Of a DNA stretch of 64,000 bases, positions 1 to 64,000 are shown one piece after another. The notes beneath the pieces are model-generated. The model was not told the DNA's origin. It did not search any database and saw only the letters and a list, made by a program, of their open reading frames with translations. Within the stretch, counting starts at the first letter, position 1. Every line of letters begins with the position of its first letter. The DNA lies in the NCBI RefSeq assembly GCF_000331305.1, contig NZ_KB217478.1, positions 3,135,776 to 3,199,775 of the forward strand. Direction: 5' to 3'. A program made the position numbers and the translations under genes. Origin of the DNA: Calothrix sp. PCC 7103 (lineage in GTDB: Bacteria; Cyanobacteriota; Cyanobacteriia; Cyanobacteriales; Nostocaceae).

Positions 1-1122
1 GACCTACTTGAGCGAGATGCTTACTTCATGATGGCAATTCAGTTTTCTCGCGGTTGTCCTTTCAATTGCGAATTTTGTGACATTATTTCTCTCTACGGTC
101 GCAAACCGCGTACTAAAGAACCGAATCAAACTTTGGCAGAGTTACAAAATCTCTATGATTTAGGCTGGCGGGGGTCACTGTTCATTGTCGATGACAACTT
201 TATTGGGAATCAGCGTAATGTCAAACGCTTCTTACAAGAATTGATACCTTGGATGAAGCAACATAACTATCCTTTCACTTTCATGACCGAAGCCTCTGTG
301 AATTTAGCAGAAGATGATGAATTGTTAGAGCTTATGGCAGAAGCAGGATTTTATGCTGTCTTTCTCGGCATTGAAACTCCTGACCAAGATAGCCTTGTTA
401 TTACACGCAAAATGCAAAATACGCGCAACCCGTTAGTAGATGCCTGCCGCAAGATAAACGAAGCAGGACTACTGATTTATGCCGGGTTTATCCTTGGCTT
501 TGATGGAGAACGTTCTGGTGCAGGTGAACGAATTCAAGCCTTTGTTGAACAGACCAATATTCCTCAACCTATGCTGGGCATTCTCCAAGCGTTGCCTAAC
601 ACAGCCCTTTGGAACCGACTTCAAACAGAGCAGCGTTTAATCTCAGGCGCCGATATCATTGCTACGGGCGACCAGAATACTTTAATGAATTTTGTTCCTA
701 CCCGCCCTATTGCCGAAATTGCGAAAGAGTATGTCGAAGGCTTCTGGAAGTTATACGAACCTGCGAACTATTTAAAACGATGTTTTCAGCAGTGCCTCAA
801 TATTGTTCCTCGAACAAGGCAAACACAAACCATGCAACTTCCCAAAGGCAAGCAGTTGCAGCTTATTGCTCAGTTAATTTGGCATCAGGGTTTACGAAGA
901 CCGGATATTCGAGGACAGTTTTGGCGCCAGTTATGGATACTTCTGCTCAAAAAGCCCCAAGTTCTCAATATGTATTTAGGATTATGCGCTACAGGAGAGC
1001 ATTTTTGGGAGTACCGAGTTTTAGCTAAGGAACGGATAACTCAACAATTAGGCTACGACCCATTAATTATAGGTACGTTAATAAATGAACCAATGCTGGT
1101 TACAAATATTTCAAACATTTAA
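1..1122 (+). CDS. B12-binding/DUF4070-type radical SAM protein, 5' end outside window
   Basis: The reading frame is open from base 1, so the first ATG at 28 is internal and the gene starts upstream of the window. Soon after the edge comes CPFNCEFC, the CxxxCxxC motif that binds the radical SAM 4Fe-4S cluster. The next ~200 residues fit a radical SAM barrel, and the remaining ~150 look like the DUF4070 C-terminal domain. Full-length members of this family are usually 500 or more residues with an N-terminal cobalamin-binding domain, which here would lie off the left edge. The substrate is unknown. The class call is firm from the cluster motif; the DUF4070 assignment is from family recognition. 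Confidence 0.85.
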   Translation, partial: DLLERDAYFMMAIQFSRGCPFNCEFCDIISLYGRKPRTKEPNQTLAELQNLYDLGWRGSLFIVDDNFIGNQRNVKRFLQELIPWMKQHNYPFTFMTEASVNLAEDDELLELMAEAGFYAVFLGIETPDQDSLVITRKMQNTRNPLVDACRKINEAGLLIYAGFILGFDGERSGAGERIQAFVEQTNIPQPMLGILQALPNTALWNRLQTEQRLISGADIIATGDQNTLMNFVPTRPIAEIAKEYVEGFWKLYEPANYLKRCFQQCLNIVPRTRQTQTMQLPKGKQLQLIAQLIWHQGLRRPDIRGQFWRQLWILLLKKPQVLNMYLGLCATGEHFWEYRVLAKERITQQLGYDPLIIGTLINEPMLVTNISNI

Positions 1123-1228
1123 GGAGTGTCCCGCAGGAAATATATCGCGTTTCTAGAAAGCATGTAAACCGGAGGTTTTACCGCAGTTAATTTTACGAAT
1201 GATACGCGAACTGCTATATATTAAAGTA

Positions 1229-1501
1229 TTACAAATTGCACCACAGTGGACTTACGTCTACCTTAGTAATAGCTTTATTCACTTTGAGAGTACGACCCAT
1301 CCACTCGGCGCCTAAGAGTGCTTTAATTGCAACTGCTTCCTCAGCATCTGTTTCCATATCTATAAAAGCAAATCCTCTCTTCTCACCTGTTTTTTTATCG
1401 ATGGGTAATCGCACTCTCCTTACAGAGCCATATTGTGAAAATATGTGCTTAAGCTCTAATTCTTTAACTTCAGAAGATAAATTGCTAACATAAACTGACA
1501 T
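1229..1501 (-). CDS. rbp: RRM-type RNA-binding protein (cyanobacterial Rbp family)
   Basis: This 90-residue protein is a single RNA recognition motif. RNP2 is seen as VYVSNL near residues 3-8 and RNP1 as RGFAFIDM near residue 42, with the aromatic residues that stack on RNA. It lacks the glycine-rich tail of some family members and ends shortly after the RRM fold. Cyanobacterial Rbp proteins are short cytoplasmic RNA binders, often induced by cold and linked to mRNA localisation near thylakoids; that role is family knowledge. It is transcribed alone, convergent with the radical SAM gene, and has a long upstream gap that could hold a regulated leader. Confidence 0.9.
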   Translation of the reverse strand: MSVYVSNLSSEVKELELKHIFSQYGSVRRVRLPIDKKTGEKRGFAFIDMETDAEEAVAIKALLGAEWMGRTLKVNKAITKVDVSPLWCNL

Positions 1502-2324
1502 AAAAATCTCTCAAATTATTTGCTTTACTTGATTATTGAATTTTTGATTGCTTTTATTCTGATATTTTAAAACTTTCGACTTTGCTTTCTAAAGCCACAA
1601 AAATAGCTTACTTCCTTACGAAACAACTATAGGGATTAAAGCCAAATTTTTGTGATAGAACGAATTATAAAACCTGCTTACCTAAGCAATGGAAACTCTT
1701 TAGAGAAATCCACAAAAAAATGCTTTTCGGTCATTCTGAACGCAGTGTAAAGCGAAGATTTTCCCGTTATCCGTAAACGAAGTTTTCCCGCAGGGTAGGA
1801 TATCCCGAAGGGTAGGGTAGAATCTCGCCCAGATGCTTAAGAAAGCGGGATAACTGCGTTAACGTTACTCAGCATGACACCACATTATCATTCGTTTTTT
1901 GGCTTACTCTTAAGGCAACCTGATACCATAAATTTACTAAACCAACTGACATATAGTACCTCTTGAACCTCATAGGTTTTAGAGATTTTATATCCGGGAA
2001 GGCTTCTATGGCAATGTGTCTATAGCGTAGTCACGTAGCCGAAAATAATTCTCTCTGGTTTAATAATAGCACGTAATATGTAATTATGTGTTAAGAACGC
2101 TATATATTAACGTAGACAGTTACAACTCTGGCACAAATGCTACACACAATACGTAGAAAGATGATAAGGTTTTTCTTACTATAGTAATTTCCAAGAGTTT
2201 TAATTCAATCTATAAAGTGGAAAAATATTTTTAGTATAAAATATTTCTAAATAGTAAAATTAGCAATTGCCTTTAATGTTGTGATTACTTTGTTTTTGAA
2301 ACCATTACAAAGAGGAATGCATCA
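1502..2324. other. Gene-free 0.8-kb region with a repeat element
   Basis: No open frame here looks like a gene. The region lies between the divergent RRM gene and response-regulator gene, so it should hold both promoters. The stretch 1502-1620 is AT-rich and is the likely leader of the RRM gene. A MITE-like element occupies about 1730-1878. The rest (1880-2324) is AT-rich without clear repeats. I found no copy of the ATGAGAA/TTCTCAT box that sits after the next gene. Confidence 0.6.
1730..1878. repeat. MITE-like element, GTCATNCTGA-ended family
   Basis: The left edge reads GTCATTCTGAACG; the right edge, read in reverse, is GTCATGCTGAGTAACG followed by TTAACGCAG. Inside are GTTTTCCCGCAGGG and GGATATCCCG, which recur in the longer element at 59663-59977. 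The termini are inverted and there is no coding capacity. It is a non-autonomous repeat of the kind common in cyanobacteria. Confidence 0.6.
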
Positions 2325-3616: not shown

Positions 3617-3664
3617 ATTGTCAAGCTAAATTAAAAAATATTAATTTTTAGAGTTTGAAGTTTG

Positions 3665-7300: not shown

Positions 7301-8542
7301 ATGCGACTCTTGGTATATTCCCACGACGCATACGGACTTGGTAACATCCGCAGAATGTTAGCTATCTGCGAACACCTCCTAAGTCAAATTCCAGAACTTT
7401 CGATTTTGTTGCTGTCTGGTTCACCAATGCTTCAAGGTTTTCGCTTACCCAAAGGTTTAGATTACATCAAACTTCCTTGTTTAAACAGAGGTGAAACAGG
7501 TGAAGTCGCTGTTAAGTATTTAGGTATGGGTATTGAGGAAACAGTTAAACTCCGTTCCGAGTTAATTTTATCAGCAGCAATTAATTTTAGACCGCATTTA
7601 TTTTTAGTAGACAAAAAGCCTTACGGGTTAAAGAACGAATTAACTAGTACTCTAAAATATTTTGAAGAGAAACTTCCAGATACCAAACTTGTTCTATTAT
7701 TACGAGATATTCTTGATTCTCCTGAAAAAACTATAAGCGAGTGGCAAAAACATCACTATCAAGAAACGATAGAAAGGTTCTACCATCAAATACTTGTTGT
7801 TGGAACACCAGATGTTTTTGATGTAGCTAAAGAATATCAATTTTCACCAATTATTACTCAAAAAACTCGCTATTGTGGTTACATCGGTCGTCAACCAGGT
7901 TTCGTACATCCAAGCTTCATCAGAAAGGAATTAGATGTATCTAAAGAAGAAAGTTTGATTTTGGTAACTCCAGGTGGTGGTGAAGACGGTTATCAATTAG
8001 TTGACTCATATCTATCAGCTTTAGCATTGCTTCCAGCACAAAATCTCATCAAAAGTTTAATAATTTGTGGACCGGAAATGCCTGCTGAACAAAAGCAACT
8101 CGTTTTTCAGGTAGCAGAAAATAATTCGAGAGTGCAAATTGGGGAATTTACAGATGATTTAATGAGCTACATGCAAGCCGCAGACGCAATTGTATCAATG
8201 GCAGGTTACAATACAGTTTGTGAAATTTTATCTGCTCGTAAATCTGCTGTAATTATACCGCGCAGTAAGCCATCTCAAGAACAATTAATTAGAGCCGAAA
8301 AAATGGCAAATCTAGGTTTATTTAAAGTACTTCATCCAGATAATATTGACTCTAAAATTTTACTTGACACTATTTTAAGTCAGTTACAAACTGAGAACAA
8401 TTCAGATTATCAGTTAAATATGAACGGTTTACCGCGCGTTAGTGACCAAATTTTAATGTTAATGTCTCAAGCAGTTTACAACCGTCAACTCAAAAAAATA
8501 TACAACGAGTCTTCTACACCATCTCTAGTTGTTAGTCATTAA
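7301..8542 (+). CDS. MurG-like (GT28/GT-B) glycosyltransferase, first of a pair
   Basis: At 413 residues this is a GT-B protein of the MurG/GT28 type. The N-terminal half opens with a SHDAYGLGNIRR segment like the glycine-rich loop of that fold, and the C-terminal half has the sugar-nucleotide site pattern (TPGGGEDGY, then SMAGYNTVCEIL and a PRSKPSQEQ loop). It shares this layout with the next gene, so the two are diverged tandem paralogues that may add successive sugars. It starts 27 bp after ugd, which suggests a substrate made from UDP-glucuronate, though donor and acceptor cannot be read from the sequence. No membrane segment is visible. Confidence 0.82.
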   Translation: MRLLVYSHDAYGLGNIRRMLAICEHLLSQIPELSILLLSGSPMLQGFRLPKGLDYIKLPCLNRGETGEVAVKYLGMGIEETVKLRSELILSAAINFRPHLFLVDKKPYGLKNELTSTLKYFEEKLPDTKLVLLLRDILDSPEKTISEWQKHHYQETIERFYHQILVVGTPDVFDVAKEYQFSPIITQKTRYCGYIGRQPGFVHPSFIRKELDVSKEESLILVTPGGGEDGYQLVDSYLSALALLPAQNLIKSLIICGPEMPAEQKQLVFQVAENNSRVQIGEFTDDLMSYMQAADAIVSMAGYNTVCEILSARKSAVIIPRSKPSQEQLIRAEKMANLGLFKVLHPDNIDSKILLDTILSQLQTENNSDYQLNMNGLPRVSDQILMLMSQAVYNRQLKKIYNESSTPSLVVSH

Positions 8543-8566
8543 TTAATAACTAAGGAAAAATTATCA

Positions 8567-9820
8567 ATGAAAAAAATTATGTTTTACTGCCAATACCTAA
8601 GTGGTATGGGACATTTAGTTAGAAGCACAGAAATTGTACGCAGTTTAGTTAAAGACTTTAAAGTTTATTTTATCAATGGTGGCCCCGTTATTGAAGGATT
8701 TGAAATGCCACCCGAAGTAGAAATTCTTAGATTACCTGCGCTGTGGTTAGAAAATGGTCAATTCACAGTTGGTGATAGTTCTTTAAGTGTTGAAGAAGTT
8801 AAAGAGTTTAGAAAAAATCTTCTCATTTCTGAATTTGATAGAATTCAACCAGATTGTTTAATTACTGAATTTTTTCCTTTTGGTAGACACAAGCTTTTGT
8901 TTGAATTACTTCCTTTTGTTGAGCATATAAAATCTACAAGCCCTAATACTAAAATAGCTAGTAGTTTACGTGATGTTATTGGCAAAGAAAGTGATGCAGA
9001 AGAAGAGGAAAGAATTTGTCATTTAATGAACCGTTACTTTGATTTATTACTGTTCCACTCTGACTCAAATTTTCAAACATTTACAGAAAGCTTCTCTAGA
9101 CACCAGGATATAAAAAGCGACATTGTACATACTGGATTTGTTACACAGGCGCCTACTTTCAACGATAACGATATTGATATTAACAAACTTTGGGGCGCTA
9201 GTAATTCCAAAAAAACAAAAATATTAGTTAGCGTCGGCGGTGGTAGAATTGGGCATGATCTGCTAGAGACTGTTGTGGAAGCTAGTTCGATTTTTGACAA
9301 AGGAATGCCTCATGTAGTCAAAATATTTACTGGACCTTTCATGCCAGAAGAGAAAGTAGAAAAATTAAAACAAGCTGCTTCTAATATCGATAATATTCAT
9401 ATAGAAAGATATACTTCACAGCTACTTGGCTACATGAAAACAGCTGATATATCTATCAGCTTAAGTGGTTATAATACTACTATGAACCTTCTCAGTACAG
9501 GAGTGCGCGCGATAGTTGTTCCAATTGGTCACGAAAATCAAGACAAAGAACAATTAGTGCGGACTATTAAGCTAGAACAAATAGGTCTTGTTGATTTTAT
9601 TCATCCTGAAAATTTGAAACCATTTTATCTAGCTGAGAAAATTCTTGAATGTCTCAGCAAAAAAACTGCGAACACCGACAATAAGCCAGTTTTTGATATG
9701 AGTGGCGCCGAAAATACGAAGAATTTTTTGAAAAATTACCTTGATAAAAATGTATATACTGTCCCCTTGTTAAAGGGATGGATTCGTAAATACTCAAATT
9801 TAAATACAACGGAGAGATAG
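8567..9820 (+). CDS. MurG-like (GT28/GT-B) glycosyltransferase, second of a pair
   Basis: This 417-residue paralogue of the preceding gene has the same GT-B layout: CQYLSGMGHLVRSTEIVRSL at the N-terminus, then SVGGGRIGHDLLE and SLSGYNTTMNLL with a GHENQDKEQL loop, the MurG/GT28 nucleotide-sugar region. It is probably cytosolic or loosely membrane-bound. It starts 24 bp after its paralogue and ends 3 bp before the ABC exporter gene, so translation is likely coupled and its product is presumably what the exporter moves. Divergence from the upstream copy is high, pointing to different specificities. Confidence 0.82.
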   Translation: MKKIMFYCQYLSGMGHLVRSTEIVRSLVKDFKVYFINGGPVIEGFEMPPEVEILRLPALWLENGQFTVGDSSLSVEEVKEFRKNLLISEFDRIQPDCLITEFFPFGRHKLLFELLPFVEHIKSTSPNTKIASSLRDVIGKESDAEEEERICHLMNRYFDLLLFHSDSNFQTFTESFSRHQDIKSDIVHTGFVTQAPTFNDNDIDINKLWGASNSKKTKILVSVGGGRIGHDLLETVVEASSIFDKGMPHVVKIFTGPFMPEEKVEKLKQAASNIDNIHIERYTSQLLGYMKTADISISLSGYNTTMNLLSTGVRAIVVPIGHENQDKEQLVRTIKLEQIGLVDFIHPENLKPFYLAEKILECLSKKTANTDNKPVFDMSGAENTKNFLKNYLDKNVYTVPLLKGWIRKYSNLNTTER

Positions 9821-9823
9821 TTA

Positions 9824-11668
9824 ATGAGTAAGCGCTCCAAAGAAAAAGATTTAAAAGGAGTTATACCAGGAATCACAAGGATTTTGCGGAAATTTTCCCC
9901 ATATATCCGTAAAGAAAGACTTTTAATTATTGCCTCTTTCTTCGCGCTATTACTTGAAACTGGTTTACGTTTATTGGAGCCTTGGCCTTTAAAATATGTC
10001 TTTGACTATATTCTCATACCTGCTCATAACAACACCGCAAACACTGCAAATCACTTCGGTCTTAGTCCAATTGTATTGCTCACTTTATCAGCAATATCAA
10101 TTGTAGTTATAACTGGAGTGGGTAGCATGGCTGCATACCTAAGTACTTACGGAATGTCCTTAGCTGTAATTCGAGTGTTATCAGAGGTACGAGGTAATCT
10201 ATTCAACCACTTACAAAGTCTCTCCCTCTCTTTCCATCAAAAGTCTAAAAGTGGTGACTTAATTACCCGCGTCACATCTGATATTGAAAAGATGCGGACT
10301 GTCACTGTTAAAACAGCTTTGCCTCTAATTACTAACGTTCTATCTCTGGTGGGGATGCTAGTAATCATGTTTTTTCTTAACTGGGAATTAGCGTTAGTAG
10401 CAATGACCATTTTCCCGATACTAACCTTGTTGACAAAAAACATGATTAGTCGCATTCGCAAATTCGCAAAACAACATCGTGACTCCGAAGGTGTTTTAGC
10501 TGCTACAACTGGTGAGACAATAGGCGCCATTAAGGTAGTGCAAGTTCTATCTCTCCAAGAAATGCTACACGGCATTTTTTCACAGCAAAACCAAAAAAGT
10601 CTAGACGAAGCTATCGAATCTCTAAGACTATCAGCAGCGCTAGAAAGAATTGTCCAGATTTTAATGGCAATTATTATAGCTATAGTATTGTGGCGCGGTT
10701 CCCATGTAGTTTTGCACAAGGAACTTAGTCCTGGGGAACTGTTGGTATTTATGACCTACCTCAGAAATGCCTTTGAACCGATGCGGAAACTTTCCAACCA
10801 AGTCGGACAAATAGCGAAAGCAACAGCTTCTGGAGAACGGGTAGTAGAACTTTTGGACTATGAACCGAATGTATGCAATAACCCTAGTGCTAAAAAAGCA
10901 CATCCCTTCTTTGGTACAGTACGATTTGAAAATGTTTCTTTCGGCTATGATACAGGTACAGAAATATTACAAGATGTCAGCTTTGTTGTTCAACCAGGGC
11001 AACAAGTCGCAGTAGTCGGACCATCTGGAAGCGGCAAATCAACTTTACTTAGTCTTATCTTACGTTTATATGACCCGGAAGCTGGTCGAATTTTAATTGA
11101 TGGTCAAGATATTAGAGAATATACAATAGATTCTCTACGGCAACAAATTAGCGTAGTTTTACAAGACAGCGTATTATTTGCTGCAAGTGTTAAAGAAAAT
11201 ATAGCTCATGGTAGACTTGGCGCCACCGATAAAGAAGTAGAAAAAGCCGCGCGTCTAGCTAATGCCCACGAATTTATAATGAAACTACCCCAAGGTTACG
11301 ACACAATTTTAAGCGAACGGGGTAGTACACTTTCGGGGGGACAAAGGCAACGTATCGCAATTGCTCGTGCTGCAATTCGTCAGGCGCCGATTATTATTTT
11401 AGATGAACCAACCACTGGTTTAGATAATGCTAGTGAGCGTACTGTTAACGCTGCACTCGCAAAACTTACCGAAGGTCAAACGACATTTGTTATTTCTCAT
11501 GACCTGAGAGCTGTAGAAAATGCAGATATTATTCTGTATATAGAGGGTGGACGTGTTTTAGAGCAAGGTACTCATAGAGAGCTTATGCGTTTGGGTAGTC
11601 GTTACGCAACTCTATACCGTATGCAAACTATTATTACTAAGGGGGATACTTATGCACTTGAAGCTTGA
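9824..11668 (+). CDS. MsbA/HepA-type ABC exporter (fused TMD-NBD)
   Basis: The 614-residue half-transporter has an N-terminal type I exporter membrane domain (helices near 32-55, 82-110, 165-205, 275-310) and a C-terminal ATPase: Walker A GPSGSGKS at 399-406, signature LSGGQ at 503-507, Walker B IIILDEPT near 523-530, and H-loop SHD. It should work as a homodimer flipping a lipid-linked glycan or polysaccharide precursor across the inner membrane. The cyanobacterial heterocyst-envelope protein HepA belongs to this class, but a hepA assignment is not supported here. Gene order places it as the exporter of the glycan built by the neighbouring transferases. Its last 17 bases overlap the next gene. 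Confidence 0.92.
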   Translation: MSKRSKEKDLKGVIPGITRILRKFSPYIRKERLLIIASFFALLLETGLRLLEPWPLKYVFDYILIPAHNNTANTANHFGLSPIVLLTLSAISIVVITGVGSMAAYLSTYGMSLAVIRVLSEVRGNLFNHLQSLSLSFHQKSKSGDLITRVTSDIEKMRTVTVKTALPLITNVLSLVGMLVIMFFLNWELALVAMTIFPILTLLTKNMISRIRKFAKQHRDSEGVLAATTGETIGAIKVVQVLSLQEMLHGIFSQQNQKSLDEAIESLRLSAALERIVQILMAIIIAIVLWRGSHVVLHKELSPGELLVFMTYLRNAFEPMRKLSNQVGQIAKATASGERVVELLDYEPNVCNNPSAKKAHPFFGTVRFENVSFGYDTGTEILQDVSFVVQPGQQVAVVGPSGSGKSTLLSLILRLYDPEAGRILIDGQDIREYTIDSLRQQISVVLQDSVLFAASVKENIAHGRLGATDKEVEKAARLANAHEFIMKLPQGYDTILSERGSTLSGGQRQRIAIARAAIRQAPIIILDEPTTGLDNASERTVNAALAKLTEGQTTFVISHDLRAVENADIILYIEGGRVLEQGTHRELMRLGSRYATLYRMQTIITKGDTYALEA

Positions 11669-12848
11669 GGAATGCAAAGCAACCCGCGTTATTTTAGTGC
11701 GTCACGGGCAAAGCACTTATAATTCTCTGGGATTGTATCAAGGTTGTAGTGACGAATCTGTATTAACTGAACTTGGATACAGCGATGCTCGTAAAACTGG
11801 AAATTTCCTCAAAGGGTTAAAATTTGATGCAATGTACACTAGTTCTTTGCAGCGCGCGCAACAAACTGCTAAAGAAATTTTAGGGGTAATGGCGCCTTCA
11901 TTGAATCCTGAAAGCATTTGTGCAAGCGAATTATTACGAGAAACAGATTTACCCGCTTGGCAAGGTTTAGCGTTTCAATATGTGAAAGAAAACTTTCCTC
12001 AAGAATATCGCACTTGGAAACAGTTTCCCCATGAATTTCGTATGGAGATTCCTAATCAAAATACTTATATACACCCTGCATTAGACCTTTACGACCGAGT
12101 ACAGAAATTTTGGTGCCAAGTACTACCACGTCACGTTGGTGAGACTATTTTACTAATAGTTCATGGTGGTACAAACCGTGCCTTAATTAGTACAGCGCTT
12201 GGCATTACTCCCGACCGCTACCACTGTATTCAACAATCAAACTGCGGTATTAGCGTATTGAATTTTCCTGATGGTACCTTAGAATCAGGGCGCCTGGAGA
12301 TAATGAATTTGGCTTCCCATGTTGGGGAATATCTTCCTAAACCTCAAGAAGGTGGTAAAGGTTTACGTCTTCTGCTTATACCTTCGGGCGTCAATGCTGA
12401 ACAAATGAATAGTTTAGCAGAACAACTTAACTCAGTTAAAATTCGGTTTTGTTTAAGTAGTATAGTTGATGATTCGCACACCATAGTACAAAAAGTCATT
12501 CAACATCATTCAGAAACAGTATATTCAGAAGTGTTTGAAGATGAGTTGCCAGAAGTTTGGCAAACAGGAATTATTAATCAAATTACTGCAAATTCAAATA
12601 ATTTAGTAACTGGTTTAATTGTCGCAAAAGAACAAATTATCAAACACTTGATTGGTCAAGCTCTTGGTATTGATTTAAATCAAGTAGAGCGGTTGCAAGT
12701 GGAAAAAGGAACTCTTTGTAGTATTCAGTATCCTGGGGAGCATCATCCACCGATTGTACAAGGGATGAATTTAAGTTATTACCAGGAGGCGGGCAGGGAT
12801 GCCCGCTCCACAAGAAAAGAGTTGTTTCAGTTTTTAATTAATGAGTAA
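11652..12848 (+). CDS. Histidine phosphatase-superfamily protein with extra C-terminal domain
   Basis: The first ~210 residues form a phosphoglycerate-mutase-like phosphatase: VRHGQST holds the catalytic histidine and VHGGTNRALI the second histidine. Residues 220-398 are an extra domain that I do not recognise. The gene overlaps the ABC exporter by 17 bp and lies 17 bp before a glycosyltransferase, so it is embedded in the polysaccharide operon; a role in dephosphorylating a sugar or polyprenyl phosphate is inferred. The last residues (EAGRDARSTRK) are encoded by a dispersed hairpin repeat, so the original C-terminus has been changed. Confidence 0.85.
   Translation: MHLKLEECKATRVILVRHGQSTYNSLGLYQGCSDESVLTELGYSDARKTGNFLKGLKFDAMYTSSLQRAQQTAKEILGVMAPSLNPESICASELLRETDLPAWQGLAFQYVKENFPQEYRTWKQFPHEFRMEIPNQNTYIHPALDLYDRVQKFWCQVLPRHVGETILLIVHGGTNRALISTALGITPDRYHCIQQSNCGISVLNFPDGTLESGRLEIMNLASHVGEYLPKPQEGGKGLRLLLIPSGVNAEQMNSLAEQLNSVKIRFCLSSIVDDSHTIVQKVIQHHSETVYSEVFEDELPEVWQTGIINQITANSNNLVTGLIVAKEQIIKHLIGQALGIDLNQVERLQVEKGTLCSIQYPGEHHPPIVQGMNLSYYQEAGRDARSTRKELFQFLINE
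12789..12814. repeat. GGGCAnGGATGCCC hairpin repeat inside a CDS
   Basis: GGGCAGGGATGCCC followed by GCTCCACAAG is one copy of a dispersed hairpin repeat. Other copies lie at 15569-15590, 20915-20939 and 33910-33935. This one lies within the coding frame of the histidine phosphatase and is translated. Confidence 0.7.
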
Positions 12849-12865
12849 TTATTGAGGAGAAGGAG

Positions 12866-14161
12866 ATGAAAATAGGATTTATAGTTTGGCGTTTTCCAGT
12901 ATTGTCAGAAGCTTTTATTCTTAATCAGATTATAGGTTTAATTGAACGTGGGCATGATGTTCATATTCATCCTGTGAATGGTTTACCAAAAAACTATACT
13001 GGTAAAGTTCATCCTGTTGTTGAAGAATATAAATTACTTGAGCGTACTTATTTTCCTCCTGTTGTTCCTGAAAACTGGTATGTACGTTTATTAGTAGGTG
13101 TGGGTTTGTTATTAAAAAATATTCACAAAGGTTCTTTAAAAACTTTACAGCTTTTTGATTCTACTAAATATGCTTCTGAAGTAAATAATTTAAAGACTTT
13201 GTATCGAACTGTATCATTACTTCAAGATGGTTCATATGACATTATTCATTGTCAATTTGGAACTTTGGCGCCTATTGCTCTTGCTTACCGCGATGCTGGT
13301 ATACTTAAAGGTAAGTTAATTACTACGTTCCGTGGTATTGATATTAGTAAGTATGTTCAAGAAAACGGCGCCAATGTTTATGACCAACTTTTTAAAGAAG
13401 GTGAATTTTTTCTTGCCAACTGTGAATTTTTTGGCAACCGTGCGATTAATTTAGGTTGTGACGCAAAAAGACTTGTAGTTCACGGTTCAGGACTAGATTG
13501 CACTAAATTCTCCTTCAAGCCTCGTTATTACCCCGTTGATGGTAAAATTAAAATTGCTACTACAGGGCGCCTGGTAGAAAAGAAAGGTATCGAATATGCG
13601 ATTCGTGCCATTGCAAAAATCGCAGCATCACACCCAAATATCGAATATAATATAATTGGAGACGGTGAATTAAAACAACGATTTGAGCAGCTAATTAGTG
13701 AATTGAATGTTGGACATATCGTCAAATTATTAGGATGGAAACAGCAAAAAGAAATTGTCGAAATTCTTGATAATTCTCATATTTTTATTGCCCCAAGTGT
13801 TACTGCTGCTGATGGAAATCAAGATGCACCAGTTAATACTCTCAAAGAAGCAATGGCAATGGGTTTACCAGTAATTAGCACTATACATGGTGGTATTCCC
13901 GAATTAGTTCAAGATGATATCTCAGGATTTTTAGTACCAGAACGTGATGCAGATTCTATTGCCGAAAAATTAGTTTATCTAATAGAACATCCCGAACGCT
14001 GGAAAAAAATGGGTGTTTCGGGACGCGCGCGCGTTGAAGAAAAATACGATATGAATAAGCTCAATGATGAATTAGTAGCAATTTATCAGCAAATGCTAAC
14101 TTCCCATTTACCTGAACAAACACCCGCAGAAAATACACAAGAATTGATATATCAATCTTAA
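12866..14161 (+). CDS. GT4-family glycosyltransferase, first of a tandem pair
   Basis: The 431-residue protein has a GT-B fold of family 4. The N-terminal part begins FPVLSEAFILNQI, as in WcaL-like colanic-acid transferases. The C-terminal part has TTGRLVEKKGIEYAI, then the E-x7-E type donor site around EAMAMGLPVISTIHGGIPE. It should transfer a sugar from a nucleotide donor onto the growing glycan at the inner membrane. GGAGAAGGAG just before the ATG is a good ribosome site. The next gene is a close paralogue with long identical stretches in the donor-binding half, which points to a tandem duplication. Confidence 0.9.
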   Translation: MKIGFIVWRFPVLSEAFILNQIIGLIERGHDVHIHPVNGLPKNYTGKVHPVVEEYKLLERTYFPPVVPENWYVRLLVGVGLLLKNIHKGSLKTLQLFDSTKYASEVNNLKTLYRTVSLLQDGSYDIIHCQFGTLAPIALAYRDAGILKGKLITTFRGIDISKYVQENGANVYDQLFKEGEFFLANCEFFGNRAINLGCDAKRLVVHGSGLDCTKFSFKPRYYPVDGKIKIATTGRLVEKKGIEYAIRAIAKIAASHPNIEYNIIGDGELKQRFEQLISELNVGHIVKLLGWKQQKEIVEILDNSHIFIAPSVTAADGNQDAPVNTLKEAMAMGLPVISTIHGGIPELVQDDISGFLVPERDADSIAEKLVYLIEHPERWKKMGVSGRARVEEKYDMNKLNDELVAIYQQMLTSHLPEQTPAENTQELIYQS

Positions 14162-14181
14162 ACTTTCTCTAAAAGGTCTTC

Positions 14182-14242
14182 TCTACTTTCTCTACTTTCT
14201 CTACTTTCTTTTCTTCCTTTGCGTACTTTGCGTACTTTGCGG
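14182..14242. repeat. Short tandem repeats between the two GT4 genes
   Basis: TCTACTTTC is repeated three times (14182-14208), and GCGTACTTT twice (from 14221) followed by GCGGTTCGTTAA. The second motif belongs to the same loose family as the GTGTACTTTGTGTC repeats near 33860. It separates two otherwise tightly packed genes, a plausible scar of the duplication. Confidence 0.6.
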
Positions 14243-14275
14243 TTCGTTAATCTAACATCAATTTTATTGTAAAAT

Positions 14276-15562: not shown

Positions 15563-15568
15563 ATAAAC

Positions 15569-15590
15569 AGGCAGGATGCCTGTTCCACAA
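15569..15590. repeat. Dispersed hairpin repeat, GGCAGGATGCC type
   Basis: GGCAGGATGCC followed by TGTTCCACAA lies just after the stop of the GT4 gene. It is a diverged copy of the element at 12789-12814 and may act as a weak processing or attenuation hairpin inside the operon. Confidence 0.5.
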
Positions 15591-15622
15591 TTGTAAAACA
15601 ATTATAATGGAGTATATAAAAA

Positions 15623-16666: not shown

Positions 16667-16681
16667 CTCTTCAATCTGCTA

Positions 16682-16786
16682 TCTCTGTGTTCTCTGCGTC
16701 TCTGTGGTGAAAATAAGTTATTAGTTTTACCACAGTGGCACAGATAAAGACGTGATTTATTGCGTCTTTGCACAGAGATTTTTTTT
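16682..16786. repeat. TCTGTGGTGAAAA-type inverted repeat
   Basis: CTCTGCGTCTCTGTGGTGAAAA is answered by TTTTACCACAGTGGCACAGA and, further on, GCGTCTTTGCACAGAG. The arms are imperfectly inverted. The same family appears at 33664-33780 and near 62060. It lies between the GT2 gene and the porin gene and could fold at the end of the operon transcript. Confidence 0.5.
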
Positions 16787-16935
16787 AATAAGGTCTATTC
16801 AAAAACAATCAAAATATCTGTTATTATTCATTACATAAATTATTAATAAGAAATTTTACTGTAAATTTTCAAGAAAAGGTTGACTAATATTACCCTTAGA
16901 ATTAACAATACTAATTGTTCGTATGAGTAAGTAGG

Positions 16936-18642: not shown

Positions 18643-18710
18643 AAATATACATATTTTGAAGATTAATGCTTGAAATTGGGAATTATAAATCAGGAGTGTA
18701 AAGTCAAATT

Positions 18711-19196: not shown

Positions 19197-19204
19197 CATT
19201 CAAT

Positions 19205-19276
19205 GTCATACTGAACGTAGTGAAGTATCTCTTTTTCTATCGACATTTTAAGATTCTTCGCTTCGCTCAGAATGAC
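19205..19276. repeat. Short inverted-repeat element, GTCATNCTGA family
   Basis: The left end is GTCATACTGAACGTAGTGAAG and the right end in reverse is GTCATTCTGAGCGAAGCGAAG, so the 72-bp unit is a near-complete hairpin. It lies between convergent genes and may also end transcription. It is related to the elements at 1730-1878 and 59663-59977. Confidence 0.65.
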
Positions 19277-19290
19277 AAGTATTGTTTTTA

Positions 19291-31816: not shown

Positions 31817-33622
31817 ATGTCGCTAATAGTACAAAAATACGGTGGTACATCTGTCGGTTCGGTTGAACGTATTCAAACGGTAGCGCAGCGTATCAGTAAA
31901 GCTGTGAAAGCTGGAAATTCGCTTGTAGTGGTGGTTTCTGCGATGGGTAAAACCACGGATGGACTTGTCAAGTTAGCGCATGAAATTTCTAGAACTCCCA
32001 ATCGTCGAGAAATGGATATGCTGCTTTCGACGGGAGAACAGGTTACTATTGCCTTGCTGAGTATGGCTTTACAGGAAATTGGGCAACCAGCAATTTCGAT
32101 GACAGGTGCCCAGGTAGGAATTGTTACCGAAGCTCACCATACGCGCGCAAGAATTTTGCATATAGAAACAGAACGATTAGAGCGTCACCTACAAGAAGGT
32201 AAAGTAGTTGTAGTTGCTGGGTTCCAAGGTATTAGCAGCACTGAGGCGTTAGAAATTACTACCTTGGGGCGGGGTGGTTCAGATACTTCAGCGGTAGCAT
32301 TAGCAGCGGCATTACGGGCAGATTTTTGTGAAATTTATACCGATGTACCAGGTATTCTGACTACTGACCCGCGATTAGTTCCTGAAGCGCAGTTAATGGA
32401 CGAAATAACCTGTGATGAAATGCTGGAACTAGCCAGTTTAGGGGCAAAAGTGCTGCATCCGCGTGCGGTAGAAATAGCCCGTAATTACAGTATGCCTTTA
32501 GTAGTGCGTTCGAGTTGGAGTGACCAACCGGGTACTTGGGTAACTTCAAAGAAACACGAAGAGCGTTCGCTTGTAAATTTAGAAATAGCTCGTCCAGTTG
32601 ATGCAATTGAATTTGACGCAAACCAAGCTAAAATAGCATTATTGCGTGTTCCTGATAAGCCTGGAGTTGCCGCGCGCTTGTTTGGAGAAATAGCGCATCA
32701 AAAGGTCGATGTTGATTTAATTATTCAATCAATTCATGACGGTAATAGTAATGACATTGCTTTTACCGTAATGACACCGATATTAAAAAAAGCTGAAGCA
32801 GTGGCAGCCGCTATTGCACCAGTACTTCGCACCTCCCAAGCTAAATCTGAAGAAGCTGAGGTATTAGTAGAACAAAACATAGCTAAAGTAAGTATTGCAG
32901 GCGCCGGGATGATTGGGCGCCCAGGTGTAGCGGCGAAAATGTTCGCTACACTTGCTGAAGCTGGTGTAAATATTCAAATGATTTCTACTAGCGAAGTAAA
33001 AGTTAGCTGTGTAGTAGACGAAACCGACTGCGAAAAAGCCGTCACCTCCCTAGCAAAAGCTTTTGATATTACCACCTCCCCCCTCCACTCCTCGAATACT
33101 GTCCCACTCTCCCACTCTCCCGTTCGTGGTGTTGCACTCGACCTAAACCAAGCGCGTTTAGCAATTCGTAATGTTCCTGATAAACCAGGGATGGCAGCAA
33201 AGTTGTTTGGGTTACTCGCAGAACATAATGTTAGTGTTGATATGATTATTCAGTCACAACGTTGCCATATTATAGATGGGGCGCCAAGACGAGATATAGC
33301 TTTTACCGTCGCGCGTCTTGATGCTGAAAGTACCCAACTTTTTCTTCAACAAGCAGCAGTAGAATATGGTTGGGGCGAAGTGGTTTTAGATAGTGCCATC
33401 GCAAAAGTCAGTATAGTAGGCGCCGGAATGGTTGGGCAACCTGGTGTAGCAGCAAAAATGTTTGAAGCTTTAGCACAAAACAAAATTAATATTCAAATGA
33501 TAGCTACATCTGAAATTAAAATTAGCTGCGTTGTTGAACAAGAGCAAGGTGTTAAAGCTTTGCAAGTCATTCACGAAGCATTTGGTTTAGCTGGTAGCGA
33601 TAAATTTGTAGTTCCAGCGTAA
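31817..33622 (+). CDS. lysC: Aspartate kinase with four ACT domains
   Basis: It phosphorylates aspartate in the first step toward lysine, threonine and methionine. KYGGTSVGS (residues 7-15) and TTLGRGGSDTSAVAL mark the kinase domain (1-245). Four ACT domains follow in two pairs, each pair repeating the MIG/VGxPGVAAKMF and IQMI-TSE-KISCVV pattern, where lysine and threonine bind for feedback control. This doubled layout (601 residues) is typical of cyanobacteria. The linker between the pairs (about 420-434) is encoded by a CCCACTCT repeat and reads PLHSSNTVPLSHSP, unlike the rest of the protein. It is transcribed alone. Confidence 0.95.
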   Translation: MSLIVQKYGGTSVGSVERIQTVAQRISKAVKAGNSLVVVVSAMGKTTDGLVKLAHEISRTPNRREMDMLLSTGEQVTIALLSMALQEIGQPAISMTGAQVGIVTEAHHTRARILHIETERLERHLQEGKVVVVAGFQGISSTEALEITTLGRGGSDTSAVALAAALRADFCEIYTDVPGILTTDPRLVPEAQLMDEITCDEMLELASLGAKVLHPRAVEIARNYSMPLVVRSSWSDQPGTWVTSKKHEERSLVNLEIARPVDAIEFDANQAKIALLRVPDKPGVAARLFGEIAHQKVDVDLIIQSIHDGNSNDIAFTVMTPILKKAEAVAAAIAPVLRTSQAKSEEAEVLVEQNIAKVSIAGAGMIGRPGVAAKMFATLAEAGVNIQMISTSEVKVSCVVDETDCEKAVTSLAKAFDITTSPLHSSNTVPLSHSPVRGVALDLNQARLAIRNVPDKPGMAAKLFGLLAEHNVSVDMIIQSQRCHIIDGAPRRDIAFTVARLDAESTQLFLQQAAVEYGWGEVVLDSAIAKVSIVGAGMVGQPGVAAKMFEALAQNKINIQMIATSEIKISCVVEQEQGVKALQVIHEAFGLAGSDKFVVPA

Positions 33623-41005: not shown

Positions 41006-41809
41006 ATGAATAAAGTTAAAATACTGAACTTAGAAATTGACAATTTATCAAAGGTAGAATTTTTAGATACCCTACAATCCGGTATTGTATTTACACCGAA
41101 TGTAGACCATTTGATGAAGTTGCAAAAAGATCCAGAATTCGTCCAAGCTTATAGTGCTAGTAACTATAAAGTTTGTGATAGTCAGATACTGCTTTTAGCA
41201 GCTAGGCTATTGGGTACTCCTATACGCGAAAAAATTTCTGGCTCTGACTTATTGCCAGCTTTCTATACTCACCACCAGGAAAATGAAAGCATTAAAATAT
41301 TTCTTTTAGGCGCCAGAGAGGGTGTTGCTGCTCAAGCACAGCAGAATATCAACCTTAAAATTGGTAGAAATATTGTCGTTGGCTCTTATTCACCAAGCTT
41401 CGGGTTTGAAAACAACGATTTAGAATGTCAGCAAATTGTTGAAATTATAAATAATTCCGGCGCCACTGTTTTAGTCATAGGAGTTGGCGCCCCAAAACAA
41501 GAGAAATGGATATGTAAATATAAGGAGCAATTACAAAACATCAAAATTTTCATGGCACTTGGCGCAACAATTGATTTTGAAGCAGGAAATATGAAACGGG
41601 CACCAAAATGGATTAGTCAGACTGGGTTTGAATGGCTGTTTAGATTGCTGTGTGAGCCTAAAAGACTGTGGAAACGTTATTTAATCGAAGATATCCCATT
41701 TTTACTTTTAATTTTAAAACAAAAGTTAAATTTGTACCTTACAAAGGACTATCTTAAGAAAAATTCTAAAGATAGCCGTCATTCTTGGCACACCGCAGGT
41801 AAATATTAA
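41006..41809 (+). CDS. WecG/TagA/CpsF-family glycosyltransferase (GT26)
   Basis: The 267-residue enzyme shows the family landmarks: TPNVDHLMKLQKDPEFVQAY near residue 28, SDSQ/REKISGSDLLP with the conserved Asp, and VIGVGAPKQEKWI. These membrane-associated transferases usually add the second sugar (ManNAc or similar) onto an undecaprenyl-diphosphate carrier. It probably starts the lipid-linked unit for the polysaccharide locus that follows. It is convergent with the reverse-strand glycosyltransferase set, and no initiating sugar-phosphate transferase is seen next to it. Confidence 0.9.
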   Translation: MNKVKILNLEIDNLSKVEFLDTLQSGIVFTPNVDHLMKLQKDPEFVQAYSASNYKVCDSQILLLAARLLGTPIREKISGSDLLPAFYTHHQENESIKIFLLGAREGVAAQAQQNINLKIGRNIVVGSYSPSFGFENNDLECQQIVEIINNSGATVLVIGVGAPKQEKWICKYKEQLQNIKIFMALGATIDFEAGNMKRAPKWISQTGFEWLFRLLCEPKRLWKRYLIEDIPFLLLILKQKLNLYLTKDYLKKNSKDSRHSWHTAGKY

Positions 41810-49457: not shown

Positions 49458-50722
49458 GTGTCATTCAAAATCTAATTGCACAAATTCAAAACAAGCTATC
49501 AAACCAGTTCCTGCGTAACCTAAGCTGGTTGGGAATGGCGGAAATTATCTATCGTATTTTCCGCTTATTGCTCGTTGCCATCATGGCTAGGTTTTTAAGT
49601 GACTATGACTATGGCTTAGGCGCTATAGTCTTAATGGTACGAGAATTTGCCATTAATTTTAGTAACTTAGGCATTGGTGCCAAAATAATTCAAGCCGAAG
49701 AAAAAGAGTTAAAACAACTATGTGACTCAGCGTACTGGTTAAACTGGGTAATTTTTGGTAGCTTGTTCGTAATTCAATGCCTTGTTGCATTTCCAATTGC
49801 CTGGGTAAAAAATACTCCGGAAGTTATTTTACCTATTTGCGTATCAGGAATTGCTTATTTAATTTGGCCTGTTACTAGCATTCAGAAAACTTTAATTCAA
49901 AGAGAAAACCGCTTCAAAATAATTGCATTTACCGATAGTCTACAATTTTCTTTAGCAAGTATTGTATCTGGTTTATTCGCCATTATGGGTTTAGGAGTAT
50001 GGGCATTTGCATTACCCCCTGTCATAATTGCTCCAATGGAAGTTATTATTTATAACAGATACCATAACTGGCGAATCAAAACTGGTTTTACAACCAAGTA
50101 TTGGCGCTCAATTTGGAAATTTGGTAGAAATATTTTAGCCATAGGTTTATTCAAAACGCTACGGAATAACTTAGATTACTTAATAATATTTAATTTTCTC
50201 GGAGTCAAAGAACTAGGAATATACTTCTTTGGTTTTAACGCTGGTTTAGGAATTAGTTTAAGTATTATTAATGCCGTAAACTCTGCCATTTTACCACATT
50301 TATGTGCAGTACGCTCTGAAATTAATGAACTTAAAAAAACTTACTTTCATAGTCTTAAAATAATTGCGCTAATTATTTTCCCTTTCGTATTACTACAATC
50401 AACTCTGGCGCCGTTTTATGTGCCAATAGTTTTCGGACAAAACCGGGTGAATGCGATTCCCATTATCATTATAGTGTGTTTATCAGCACTTCCACGACCT
50501 TTTGCAGATGCAGCTTCTCAGCTACTAGTTGCAGTCGGTAAACCAAATATAGACTTGCGCTGGAACGTTATATTTACTTTAATATTTGGAGTCACGTTGC
50601 TGGTTGGCGCCAAATTTTCAATACTTGGAGTCGCAATAGCCGTTTTGTGGGCACACGTTACCTGTTTACCCTTATTTTCCCTTTGGGTAACACAGCATGT
50701 TTTTGGAAAAAAATTAAATTAA
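49454..50722 (+). CDS. Wzx-type oligosaccharide flippase
   Basis: The 422-residue protein has about twelve transmembrane helices in the polysaccharide-transporter (MOP) fold, including the N-terminal LGMAEIIYRIFRLLLVAIMA and TSIQKTLIQRENRFKIIAF typical of the Wzx/RfbX group. It would flip undecaprenyl-linked units across the inner membrane for the polymerase encoded divergently. The start is GTG at 49454, in a 4-base overlap with the stop of the Wzc-like gene, which implies coupled translation. Confidence 0.9.
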   Translation: MSVIQNLIAQIQNKLSNQFLRNLSWLGMAEIIYRIFRLLLVAIMARFLSDYDYGLGAIVLMVREFAINFSNLGIGAKIIQAEEKELKQLCDSAYWLNWVIFGSLFVIQCLVAFPIAWVKNTPEVILPICVSGIAYLIWPVTSIQKTLIQRENRFKIIAFTDSLQFSLASIVSGLFAIMGLGVWAFALPPVIIAPMEVIIYNRYHNWRIKTGFTTKYWRSIWKFGRNILAIGLFKTLRNNLDYLIIFNFLGVKELGIYFFGFNAGLGISLSIINAVNSAILPHLCAVRSEINELKKTYFHSLKIIALIIFPFVLLQSTLAPFYVPIVFGQNRVNAIPIIIIVCLSALPRPFADAASQLLVAVGKPNIDLRWNVIFTLIFGVTLLVGAKFSILGVAIAVLWAHVTCLPLFSLWVTQHVFGKKLN

Positions 50723-52115: not shown

Positions 52116-52805
52116 ATGGAATCTAAAACCCAAAATCAGTTGTATCGGGATGAGTACAAATGTCTAGCTGACTTAAATGTATATGATTCCCCTGAATGCT
52201 CTCGACTTGCAACGCAAGCAGCAGCAGGACGACATCTAAAATTTACATCAAATCAGGATACAGCTATTAAGGTACTTTTGTGTGAAGATAATTACCCTGG
52301 CTGGTTAGCAGTTTCAGATTTAAATTTACTACAACCAGCTAATATACCTTACCAACCTCAAACATTTGCAGAAGAAGATATTAAAAAATTTTTGCCACAG
52401 GTAATTGACTTTACCCACCATGCTATGCAGCAACCTAATTACTACTTATGGGGTGGTACAGTAGCACCAAATTATGATTGTTCAGGTTTGATGCAAGCTG
52501 CTTTTGCATCGGTAGGGGTTCGTCTTCCTCGTGATGCCTATCAACAGGAAGCTTTTTTATTACCTATTAATGTTTCACAATTAGAACCAGGAGATTTAGT
52601 ATTCTTTGGAACTCCCCAAAAAGCAACACATGTGGGACTCTATTTAGGTGATGGTCGCTATATCCATAGTTCTGGAAAAGAGCAAGGACGTAATGGGATT
52701 GGTATTGATATCCTCTCGGAACAAGGGGATGCTGTTAGCCAGTCATATTATAAACAGCTGCGCGGCGCCGGTAGGGTTATTAAGAGTTTTGAGGGATTGG
52801 TATGA
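52116..52805 (+). CDS. NlpC/P60-family peptidoglycan endopeptidase
   Basis: I start at ATG 52116 (MESKTQNQLYRDEYKCLADL). The 229-residue protein has an N-terminal SH3-like domain (residues 10-75) and a C-terminal NlpC/P60 domain with catalytic Cys in YDCSGLMQAAF and His in ATHVGLYLGDGRYIHSSG. Structurally known cyanobacterial relatives are gamma-D-Glu-diaminopimelate endopeptidases that recycle wall peptides. There is no signal peptide, which fits a cytosolic recycling role. It overlaps the next gene by 4 bp and lies 15 bp from a divergent beta-lactamase-fold gene. Confidence 0.92.
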   Translation: MESKTQNQLYRDEYKCLADLNVYDSPECSRLATQAAAGRHLKFTSNQDTAIKVLLCEDNYPGWLAVSDLNLLQPANIPYQPQTFAEEDIKKFLPQVIDFTHHAMQQPNYYLWGGTVAPNYDCSGLMQAAFASVGVRLPRDAYQQEAFLLPINVSQLEPGDLVFFGTPQKATHVGLYLGDGRYIHSSGKEQGRNGIGIDILSEQGDAVSQSYYKQLRGAGRVIKSFEGLV

Positions 52806-58864: not shown

Positions 58865-58865
58865 A

Positions 58866-61162: not shown

Positions 61163-61199
61163 AAATTTTATTTCCTAATTGCGATGAGTAGCTATATTC

Positions 61200-61265: not shown

Positions 61266-61304
61266 AATATTTGAAAGGGCTGGGTGGGCACTGCCCACCT
61301 TACT

Positions 61305-62889: not shown

Positions 62890-63008
62890 TAGTTTCTCTC
62901 GTTTTCGGATCGACGAGACAAGTCTACTAATTTTCTATCGCGTTTCAAAACTCCCTCGCGATAGATGGGGTTCATCCGTTAGATGATTTATAATTTTGCC
63001 GAAAGAAA

Positions 63009-63026
63009 AAAGGGGAAAACCCCTTT
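63009..63026 (-). terminator. Rho-independent terminator of the 83-residue gene
   Basis: On the reverse strand, AAAGGGG and CCCCTTT form a 7-bp stem with a 4-base loop, followed by six T. It lies eight bases beyond the stop codon of the gene at 63034-63285. Confidence 0.85.
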
Positions 63027-63033
63027 GATCTCA

Positions 63034-63285
63034 CTAAGCAGTTTTACGTGGTATGTGCGGGATAGTAATATCGCTATACCCAGGATAAACAATTACAAAC
63101 TTTTCTACGCCTATGTCTAAGTGAGCTAGTCCTTCAGCATCTCTAAGTATTGCTGCTCGACATTCAGGAGTTTGGCAGTGGATAGAAATGTTTTTTTGTA
63201 TAAGGTCAAATTTTAAATGACAAACTCCCCACCAAGGAAATTTGTATGCTAGGTACTGAGAAACTACTTGAATGACACTCATCAA
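63034..63285 (-). CDS. Uncharacterised 83-residue protein
   Basis: A soluble small protein: VVSQYLAYKFPWWGVCHLKF, then SIHCQTPECRAAILRDAEGL and a C-terminal segment VEKFVIVYPGYSDITIPHIP. Three cysteines occur, two of them as CQTPEC. I do not recognise the family. A clean terminator directly after the stop supports it as a real gene. Confidence 0.72.
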   Translation of the reverse strand: MMSVIQVVSQYLAYKFPWWGVCHLKFDLIQKNISIHCQTPECRAAILRDAEGLAHLDIGVEKFVIVYPGYSDITIPHIPRKTA

Positions 63286-63607
63286 CTCTTAAACTCTAAA
63301 TGATTAACGAAGGATGAACATATTTTGGACAGTTTGCACCGCTCTTTACCTTTGTCTTCCCTAAAAATTAGCGCCAAGCTCTTTGATAAAAGACTGACGC
63401 TATAGGACAAATGTCCCACAGAACTTATTTAAAGGGAATACAAGCAGAATCATCTACGCCCTTAAAACCGGGTTTATCGGATTGTATGCGTAAGTCCTAG
63501 CTTGTATAAATTTGTTATTGTTATTAGACTGGCATCAAAATAATAATATTCTGTAACATTTAAGATTTTCTTTATAATTTTTGCTAAGAGAAGTTATTAT
63601 GATTAAT
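63286..63607. other. Gene-free gap
   Basis: No reading frame or repeat family is recognised. Around 63386-63470 there are GC-richer words (GACAAATGTCCCACAG, AAAACCGGGTTTATCGG) without a clear stem and tail. Confidence 0.45.
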
Positions 63608-64000
63608 CTAATCTTCGATTTCTAAGGCTAATTGGTATATATAACGACGAGGGAGCGAAGTTAAAAGTGCGATTTCGCGACTTGCTTGCGAGCGCGCAAT
63701 TCCTTGACTAATCATTTTTTCTAGTTCTGCCTTAATTTGACTTTCAGAAAGCTGGGTTTCATGCGTTACACCTCCCACCAGGATGGTATATTCTCCTTGT
63801 GGTTCGCGTGACTTGTAGTGACGACAAGCTTCTTCAATTGTTCCACGCCAAAATTCCTCATAATATTTAGTTAACTCCCGTGCGAGAACGATTTGGCGCC
63901 CTTGTCCTATCACTTCTGCTAAGTCTTGTAAAGTCGCACGTAAACGATGTGGCGATTCATAGAAAATAATAGTTCGAGATTCTTTCAGAAGAAATTCCAA
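63608..64000 (-). CDS. rsmI: 16S rRNA 2'-O-methyltransferase RsmI, C-terminal part
   Basis: The frame is open to the right edge, so this is the C-terminal ~130 residues; full members have about 280. IIFYESPHRLRATLQDLAEV is a landmark of the tetrapyrrole-methylase fold in RsmI, followed by VLARELTKYYEEFWRGTI and EYTILVGG. RsmI methylates the 2'-hydroxyl of C1402 in 16S rRNA. The final segment (SRSQASREIALLTSLPRRYI) matches the small C-terminal RsmI domain. Confidence 0.93.
   Translation of the reverse strand: MEFLLKESRTIIFYESPHRLRATLQDLAEVIGQGRQIVLARELTKYYEEFWRGTIEEACRHYKSREPQGEYTILVGGVTHETQLSESQIKAELEKMISQGIARSQASREIALLTSLPRRYIYQLALEIED

Follow-up and report, generated by a model that had tools for sequence, protein, structure and literature searches.

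In cyanobacteria of the Dulcicalothrix/Calothrix lineage, the place of HIP1, the octamer GCGATCGC, is taken by an alternate highly iterated palindrome, the hexamer GGCGCC. We examined its occurrence in a stretch of 64,000 bases (hereafter the window; G000:C7:3135776-3199775, 38.4% GC) of the Calothrix sp. PCC 7103 genome (G000; 11.58 Mb, 12 contigs), in the remainder of this genome and in related genomes. By an alternate highly iterated palindrome we mean a GC-rich palindrome that is by far the most over-represented one, at roughly 1,000-2,000 copies/Mb, in a genome where HIP1 is low or almost absent and for whose motif a methyltransferase is predicted.

GGCGCC and HIP1 in the window and the whole genome

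The window contained 89 GGCGCC sites, while 3.2 were expected from base composition; the original prediction had given about 85-90 and about four, respectively. Under a maximal-order Markov model the expectation rose to 41, a figure in which the sub-words are inflated by the GGCGCC motif itself. GGCGCC had the highest ratio to composition among the 64 palindromic hexamers in the window, and it likewise ranked first in a 404-kb readable sample composed of the window and 17 stretches spread across the genome (651 sites versus 21.3 expected by composition). Genome-wide, 17,704 sites were counted (1,528/Mb), as compared to 8 of the reversed control CCGCGG, which is itself avoided in this genome. 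On the two strands of the 404-kb sample together, the octamer CAGGCGCC occurred 136 times. As had also been foreseen, the sites were evenly spread: their spacing was slightly more even than random (variance/mean 0.82-0.91 for 366 sites in 264 kb), with a mean of 722 bases.

HIP1 was missing from the window, but only 0.3 copies were expected by composition, so that a zero in 64 kb says little by itself. In the whole genome it was rare, with 163 copies (14/Mb) versus 58 of its reversed control. Its claimed absence thus holds for the window and not for the genome, and plentiful HIP1 outside the window, the finding that was to speak against a replacement, was not encountered. CGATCG occurred once in the window (8.2 expected by composition), GATC 25 times (224 expected) and GGCC 13 times (87 expected). 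Since GATC was also scarce in the 404-kb sample (123 versus 1,421 expected), the loss of HIP1 accompanies a general loss of GATC, in line with the GATC endonuclease suggested by Elhai.

Composition and codon usage

Many sites were expected to be in-frame Gly-Ala codons (GGC GCC), and this proved right for 423 of 780 genic sites. This could favour the view that the excess is an artefact, reflecting base composition, preferred codons or the proteins encoded. We analyzed 306 open reading frames (ORFs) of at least 200 codons, taken from the window and 28 readable 20-kb stretches of G000, 11 of which had been chosen around methyltransferase genes. After 30 synonymous shuffles, 42.3 +/- 7.6 sites remained of the 780, and the counts in the three reading frames fell from 423/147/210 to 17/12/13. 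Gly-Ala pairs were encoded by GGC GCC in 423 of 795 cases (53%), as opposed to 2.3% expected from codon frequencies. The density was 1,880/Mb inside these ORFs and 1,369/Mb outside, so every frame and non-coding DNA alike were enriched. About 0.96 Mb of relatives from the same genus gave the same picture (1,051 genic sites versus 60 after shuffling). Together with the 8 copies of CCGCGG against 17,704 of GGCGCC, synonymous shuffling leads us to reject composition or codon use as the cause; we see practically no chance for it.

A sharp genus boundary

Our survey of the family covered 217 genomes, seven of which belong to this genus. Each of the seven carried 7,475-20,380 GGCGCC sites (1,150-1,711/Mb) and 1-8 CCGCGG, with 31-163 copies of GCGATCGC per genome. 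In the other 210 genomes GGCGCC did not exceed 111/Mb, and this maximum belonged to G084, whose CCGCGG control is higher still. HIP1 exceeded 1,000 copies in all of these 210 except G182 (30), G194 (535), G191 (574) and G184 (990).

Among 386 genomes of the phylum, in which not every high count was followed up, no second clear GGCGCC palindrome was found. G420 (2,493 GGCGCC versus 38 of the control) was rejected as an independent case, as HIP1 and GGCGCC are about equally dense in its sample and the GGCGCC excess is mild. In G284, G262 and other genomes with high counts, the CCGCGG control was high as well; they are probably GC-rich and were not taken as cases. The 10.7-Mb family genome G194 is low in HIP1 and poor in GATC (19 versus 671 expected in a 190-kb sample); no alternate palindrome was found in that sample, and its top 8-mers apparently derive from one iterated element around CTCCGCGAGGAG.

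A methyltransferase without a detected partner endonuclease

For METHYLTRANSFERASE, 15 PF00145 profile matches were obtained in G000 and 89 across the seven genomes of the genus. Clustering took 68 of the 89, the remainder consisting of short fragments or of the second part of a split match. Two types of methyltransferase were present in all seven genomes, A1 and the 370-aa type B. A1 contains a C5 methyltransferase domain, its catalytic motifs PCQ and ENV being visible in the alignment; its best PADLOC match is the type II methyltransferase model PDLC03270, and a plasmid gene that shares 54% identity with it carries the annotation hindVM. Homologues in the other six genomes of the genus are 81-99% identical and without stops, and the ratio of nonsynonymous to synonymous substitution rates (dN/dS) is 0.05-0.18. 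The same neighbours, a RuBisCO-like mtnW gene and an SLH/GHL10 gene, flank A1 in five of the seven genomes, and one of the two is shared by G064. In G061 the A1 locus consists of two contig-end fragments (95-96%), with a full copy of 83% elsewhere.

No restriction gene was recognised adjoining A1 in G000. The situation is different in g9, the nearest genus outside (80-81% DNA identity in one 2.4-kb block). Two of its three genomes have an A1 homologue (70-72% identity), located directly after a protein with a Pfam RE_HindVP match at 2e-154; this protein has 366 aa in G029 and is divided between two frames in G027. The G029 protein has all three motifs WGKNQF, KNDKAFA and SPERRFD, which the accessible text of PMC2413257 gives as those of the BsaHI/HgiDI group, cutting GRCGYC; according to the same text, M.BsaHI methylates the central (inner) cytosine of this site. 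In G190, too, the A1 homologue adjoins a BsaHI-type endonuclease. The RE_HindVP endonuclease was detected in 40 of the 217 family genomes, some copies being broken, and in none of the seven of this genus (E <= 1e-20). A1 is thus predicted to be a methyltransferase without its partner and not a restriction-modification system. Its GRCGYC specificity is suggested by the endonuclease that accompanies it in relatives, by avoidance of the site and by the family model.

The avoidance was seen outside the genus, where genomes with both genes (38) had a median of 0.7 GGCGCC/Mb and those with neither (152) had 5.1 (p=1.5e-6); the median for the 18 with only the methyltransferase was 5.5. The lower value in the first group indicates that the target of the enzyme includes GGCGCC and that restriction accompanies avoidance. 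The genus of G076-G079 has an A1 homologue, no detected endonuclease, full HIP1 and 20-43 GGCGCC/Mb, so that GGCGCC is not raised there by a methyltransferase lacking restriction.

A second GRCGYC-type copy (about 60% identity) occurs in G000, G062, G064 and G065 and, shortened, in G061; A1 and this copy are the enzymes predicted for the motif. A search of the seven genomes did not reveal it in G060 or G063, where GGCGCC nevertheless stands at 1,701 and 1,150/Mb, respectively. The second copy as a necessary component is therefore not supported, which runs counter to the suggestion in the accessible text of Elhai. The original prediction that the palindrome was swapped possibly together with a methyltransferase is supported, except that the enzyme is predicted to be of the degenerate GRCGYC type and not strictly specific for GGCGCC.

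Mutation pattern at GGCGCC sites

For 264 kb of G000, alignments were obtained with G065, G060 and G064 (94-95% identity over 186, 68 and 80 kb) and with the outgroups G062 (86% over 54 kb) and G063 (82% over 41 kb). The blocks shared with the sister genus (about 66-76% in the larger ones) are too diverged for single changes, so the directions of change were read from G062 and G063. Among 436 site-lineages for which GGCGCC is shared by at least two other close genomes, 54 losses were found. Of 46 single-base losses, 35 were C3>T or G4>A, giving GGTGCC or GGCACC. Over all positions, C3>T occurred in 43/872 cases (4.9%) versus 528/18655 (2.8%) for other CpG (p=0.0009).

At 4-fold degenerate sites, C>T at C6 was seen in 4/183 cases (2.2%) versus 210/2700 (7.8%) at other C that are not followed by G (p=0.003), and transversions at C3 in 0/189 versus 41/1377 (p=0.007). 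The third position of the Ala codon GCC had changed in 4/130 cases inside GGCGCC and in 51/399 elsewhere with the next base not G (p=0.0008). Synonymous change at GGCGCC sites is thus resisted, the exception being C-to-T at the inner cytosine, which is the base that M.BsaHI methylates.

The products of this change, GGTGCC/GGCACC, reach 329/Mb in G000 and 268/Mb in its relatives, as compared to 44/Mb in a g9 sample and 58/Mb in one of G194. Their ratio of observed to expected counts (O/E) under a second-order model was 2.1 in G000 and 1.7 in the relatives. GACGCC/GGCGTC were depleted, with an O/E of 0.3-0.4.

Losses outnumber gains

By a strict count, recent changes of GGCGCC amounted to 54 losses and 3 gains. 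For other hexamers, grouped by GC content, the ratio of gains to losses was 0.84-1.07; GGTGCC/GGCACC had 39 gains and 2 losses, and the other sequences one base away from GGCGCC had 36 gains and 14 losses. The losses were distributed over all four lineages (G000 21, G060 6, G065 9, G064 18), and 25 of the 30 with an outgroup aligned had GGCGCC in an outgroup. On the deeper branch the direction seemed to be reversed: 12 sites have GGCGCC in the ingroup but lack it in both G062 and G063, and 2 show the opposite pattern. Four of the 12 are GGTGCC/GGCACC in G062 or in both outgroups, which may represent parallel losses or one-step gains; others need two changes. We read this reversal between branches as past creation and present decay. 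Examples are listed in Table 1.

Table 1. Location of the GGCGCC set, of individual changed sites (window positions) and of the A1 gene
Feature	Position	Strand	Description
GGCGCC set	1..64000	.	89 sites, first 646, last 63895; 0 GCGATCGC, 1 CGATCG, 25 GATC
Lost site	32105..32110	.	GGTGCC here, GGCGCC in all five aligned genus relatives (C3>T)
Lost site, second example	49676..49681	.	GGTGCC here, GGCGCC in all five aligned genus relatives
Ingroup-stem gain or parallel loss	52764..52769	.	GGCGCC in four closest genomes, GGTGCC in both more distant
Probable gain, two changes	41309..41314	.	GGCGCC in four closest genomes; the two distant ones have GGTGCG and GGTGCT
A1	G000:C7:8004469-8005407 (L073:9470-10408)		Predicted methyltransferase, 313 aa; PF00145, 5.9e-66

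Proposed explanation and its rivals

The explanation that we favour, and hold to be rather probable as a whole, is that GGCGCC replaced HIP1 on the stem of the genus, where HIP1, and GATC generally, was lost. A GRCGYC 5-methylcytosine methyltransferase, once half of a BsaHI/HgiDI-type system, would have been orphaned by loss of its endonuclease. No longer exposed to restriction, and with their inner cytosine methylated (GGmCGCC), the sites would then have risen about 30-fold, in all frames and between genes. Today the synonymous positions are protected, while the inner cytosine leaks C-to-T and losses outpace gains. The counts, the genus boundary, the unpartnered methyltransferase, the protection and the leak are direct results; we infer methylation of GGCGCC in the cell, the loss of the endonuclease before the rise, and what created and protects the sites.

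Several observations weigh against this explanation. Methylation of GGCGCC in vivo would have to be read from indirect signs, namely the C>T changes concentrated on the inner cytosine and the GGTGCC counts, and at 4-fold degenerate sites C3>T was not distinguishable from other CpG (16/189, 8.5%, versus 102/1377, 7.4%; p=0.56). Transversions at C6 were not significantly reduced (2/183 versus 81/2700, p=0.17). Under a third-order model, the O/E of GGTGCC/GGCACC was only 1.2 in G000 and 1.0 in the relatives. When sites aligned in all four genomes were counted more loosely, so that the genomes without GGCGCC need not agree, 27 had three GGCGCC and 6 had one, a milder ratio. The cluster-B 5-methylcytosine methyltransferase is also present in all seven genomes of the genus. 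The sister genome G028 has neither the methyltransferase nor the endonuclease, yet only 4 GGCGCC. Finally, all 18 family genomes with an A1 homologue (some of them fragments) and no detected endonuclease have at most 43 GGCGCC/Mb. As there is no excess in these 18, the methyltransferase alone does not explain the rise; it may be necessary for a GGCGCC palindrome but not sufficient.

As for the force behind the sites, Elhai proposed a ratchet, in which a mismatch repair directed by GmeC, itself postulated, retains those mutations that give rise to GGmCGCC. Sites would arise and persist through repair bias, with no selected function, and an additional GRCGYC methyltransferase copy may have been what shifted the balance. 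The ratchet fits the density near one site per kb, the depletion of GACGCC/GGCGTC, the enrichment in all frames and between genes, and the 12 ingroup-only sites against 2 on the deeper branch. It fits poorly with 3 gains versus 54 losses on the recent branches and with the high densities in G060 and G063, where the second copy was not found; moreover, the required MutH analogue is postulated only, according to the accessible text (PMC4390886). However, the model, as given there, lets the bias stop near saturation, so this evidence is not decisive, and we regard the ratchet as a rather unlikely alternative. A little less likely still is selection for a function of the (methylated) site as a landmark for repair, recombination or chromosome organisation, as has long been suggested for HIP1. 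The conserved synonymous positions, as seen at the third position of Ala GCC, the slightly even spacing and the purifying selection on the methyltransferase would agree with such a function, but it should not leave a recent loss excess of 54:3, and a protein reading HIP1 could hardly switch its specificity so easily, as Elhai argues in the accessible text (PMC4390886). Repair of the Vsr type, a short-patch process turning T:G into C:G in this context and over-producing GGCGCC, would account for change being concentrated at the position that deamination would hit if the inner cytosine is methylated. We consider it very improbable and disfavour it as the cause: Vsr (PF03852) was detected in 1 of the 217 family genomes and in none of the seven of this genus, over-repair should deplete GGTGCC, which is not depleted under either model, and back-conversion of GGTGCC/GGCACC was seen in 1 of 20 cases. 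The last figure, from a small sample, also led us to reject a fast C/T flip-flop equilibrium (GGCGCC to GGTGCC plus GGCACC about 84:16 in G000), for which we estimate that about 40% back-conversion per branch would be needed.

Within the favoured explanation, a bolder reading is that the GGCGCC set represents the remains of an ended burst and not a steady state. The sites would have been created on the stem after HIP1 had disappeared and a GRCGYC methyltransferase had been left without its endonuclease. Deamination of their methylated inner cytosine, which turns GGmCGCC into GGTGCC, would now be eroding them more quickly than new ones form, with other synonymous changes being resisted. We put this forward tentatively, as somewhat more doubtful than not. 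The 54:3 imbalance could possibly also result from weak selection that purges losses more slowly than they appear, or from an incomplete ancestral picture. If the ended burst were true, highly iterated palindromes would be episodic products, datable from their GGTGCC halo, and a permanently running ratchet would be argued against.

The role and origin of highly iterated palindromes are an old open question, and in this genus HIP1 has been replaced cleanly and by nature itself. The seven GGCGCC-bearing genomes can be contrasted with a sister genus without it, and the methyltransferase is amenable to removal or expression. The protected synonymous positions, the single leaking base and the 54:3 imbalance make both the repair ratchet and the selected landmark testable in strains available in culture, namely Calothrix PCC 7103, PCC 7716 and Dulcicalothrix desertica PCC 7102.

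Other palindromes and import-like stretches

CGCGCG (31 in the window versus 3.2 expected) and GCGCGC (20) were also over-represented, below the level of GGCGCC. CCGCGG, GTGCAC, GTCGAC, GCATGC, CCATGG, TGCGCA, CGTACG and GAGCTC each had zero occurrences in the 404-kb sample; these near-missing palindromes suggest many past restriction systems.

One stretch of G000 (L112:6001-16000; G000:C7:2866001-2876000) contained 5 HIP1, 29 GATC and no GGCGCC, at 43-48% GC with outer flanks of 34-37%. Parts of L113 resemble it in HIP1, GATC and GC, less clearly. Such HIP1-bearing, GATC-rich stretches look like DNA recently imported from another cyanobacterium; as they carry HIP1 and little or no GGCGCC, the contrast between the two palindromes may mark imports.

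Comparison with known systems

HIP1 was described in 1995, and a HIP1-deficient Calothrix, D253, was reported by Robinson et al. 1995, both as cited in the accessible text of Elhai 2015 (PMC4390886). That text lists Calothrix PCC 7103 with 14 HIP1/Mb and the label "Alternative (GGCGCC)", with CAGGCGCC as its top 8-mer (159/Mb) and GATC at 16% of expectation. It describes the strain as having no recognisable GGCGCC-specific methyltransferase but two predicted GRCGYC-type ones, the second copy being possibly critical; a GATC endonuclease is suggested, and remnants of a CGATCG methyltransferase are described. The excess of GGCGCC and its replacement of HIP1 are therefore correct but already published, and a methyltransferase accompanying the swap is likewise in print, as far as the accessible text goes (PMC4390886). 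Besides this paper, no further report of GGCGCC as an alternate palindrome in Calothrix was found in the open-licence literature searched. New here are the genus-wide sharing, the predicted methyltransferase without its partner endonuclease, and the inner-cytosine leak with the excess of losses.

Compared with the GGCGCC of PCC 7103 and D253 in the accessible text of Elhai (PMC4390886), the motif, the HIP1 density of 14/Mb and the top context CAGGCGCC are identical, and GATC is likewise strongly depleted with GRCGYC methyltransferases present. However, that text concerns one genome and 19 kb of D253, whereas here all seven genomes of the genus share the palindrome within a sharp boundary, and two of them appear to be without the second methyltransferase copy. 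With the HIP1 of most cyanobacteria, GGCGCC shares the character of a GC-rich palindrome at about one per kb, in genes and between them, with a matching predicted methyltransferase. It differs in sequence, as it contains no GATC or CGATCG, and in its distribution, since among the genomes examined closely it reaches high density only in this genus. As for the BsaHI/HgiDI/HindV systems, in so far as the accessible text of PMC2413257 describes them, A1 is predicted to be of their type and its sister homologues adjoin a BsaHI-type endonuclease; in this genus, by contrast, no partner was detected, and one of the predicted target sites is massively over-represented instead of being avoided.

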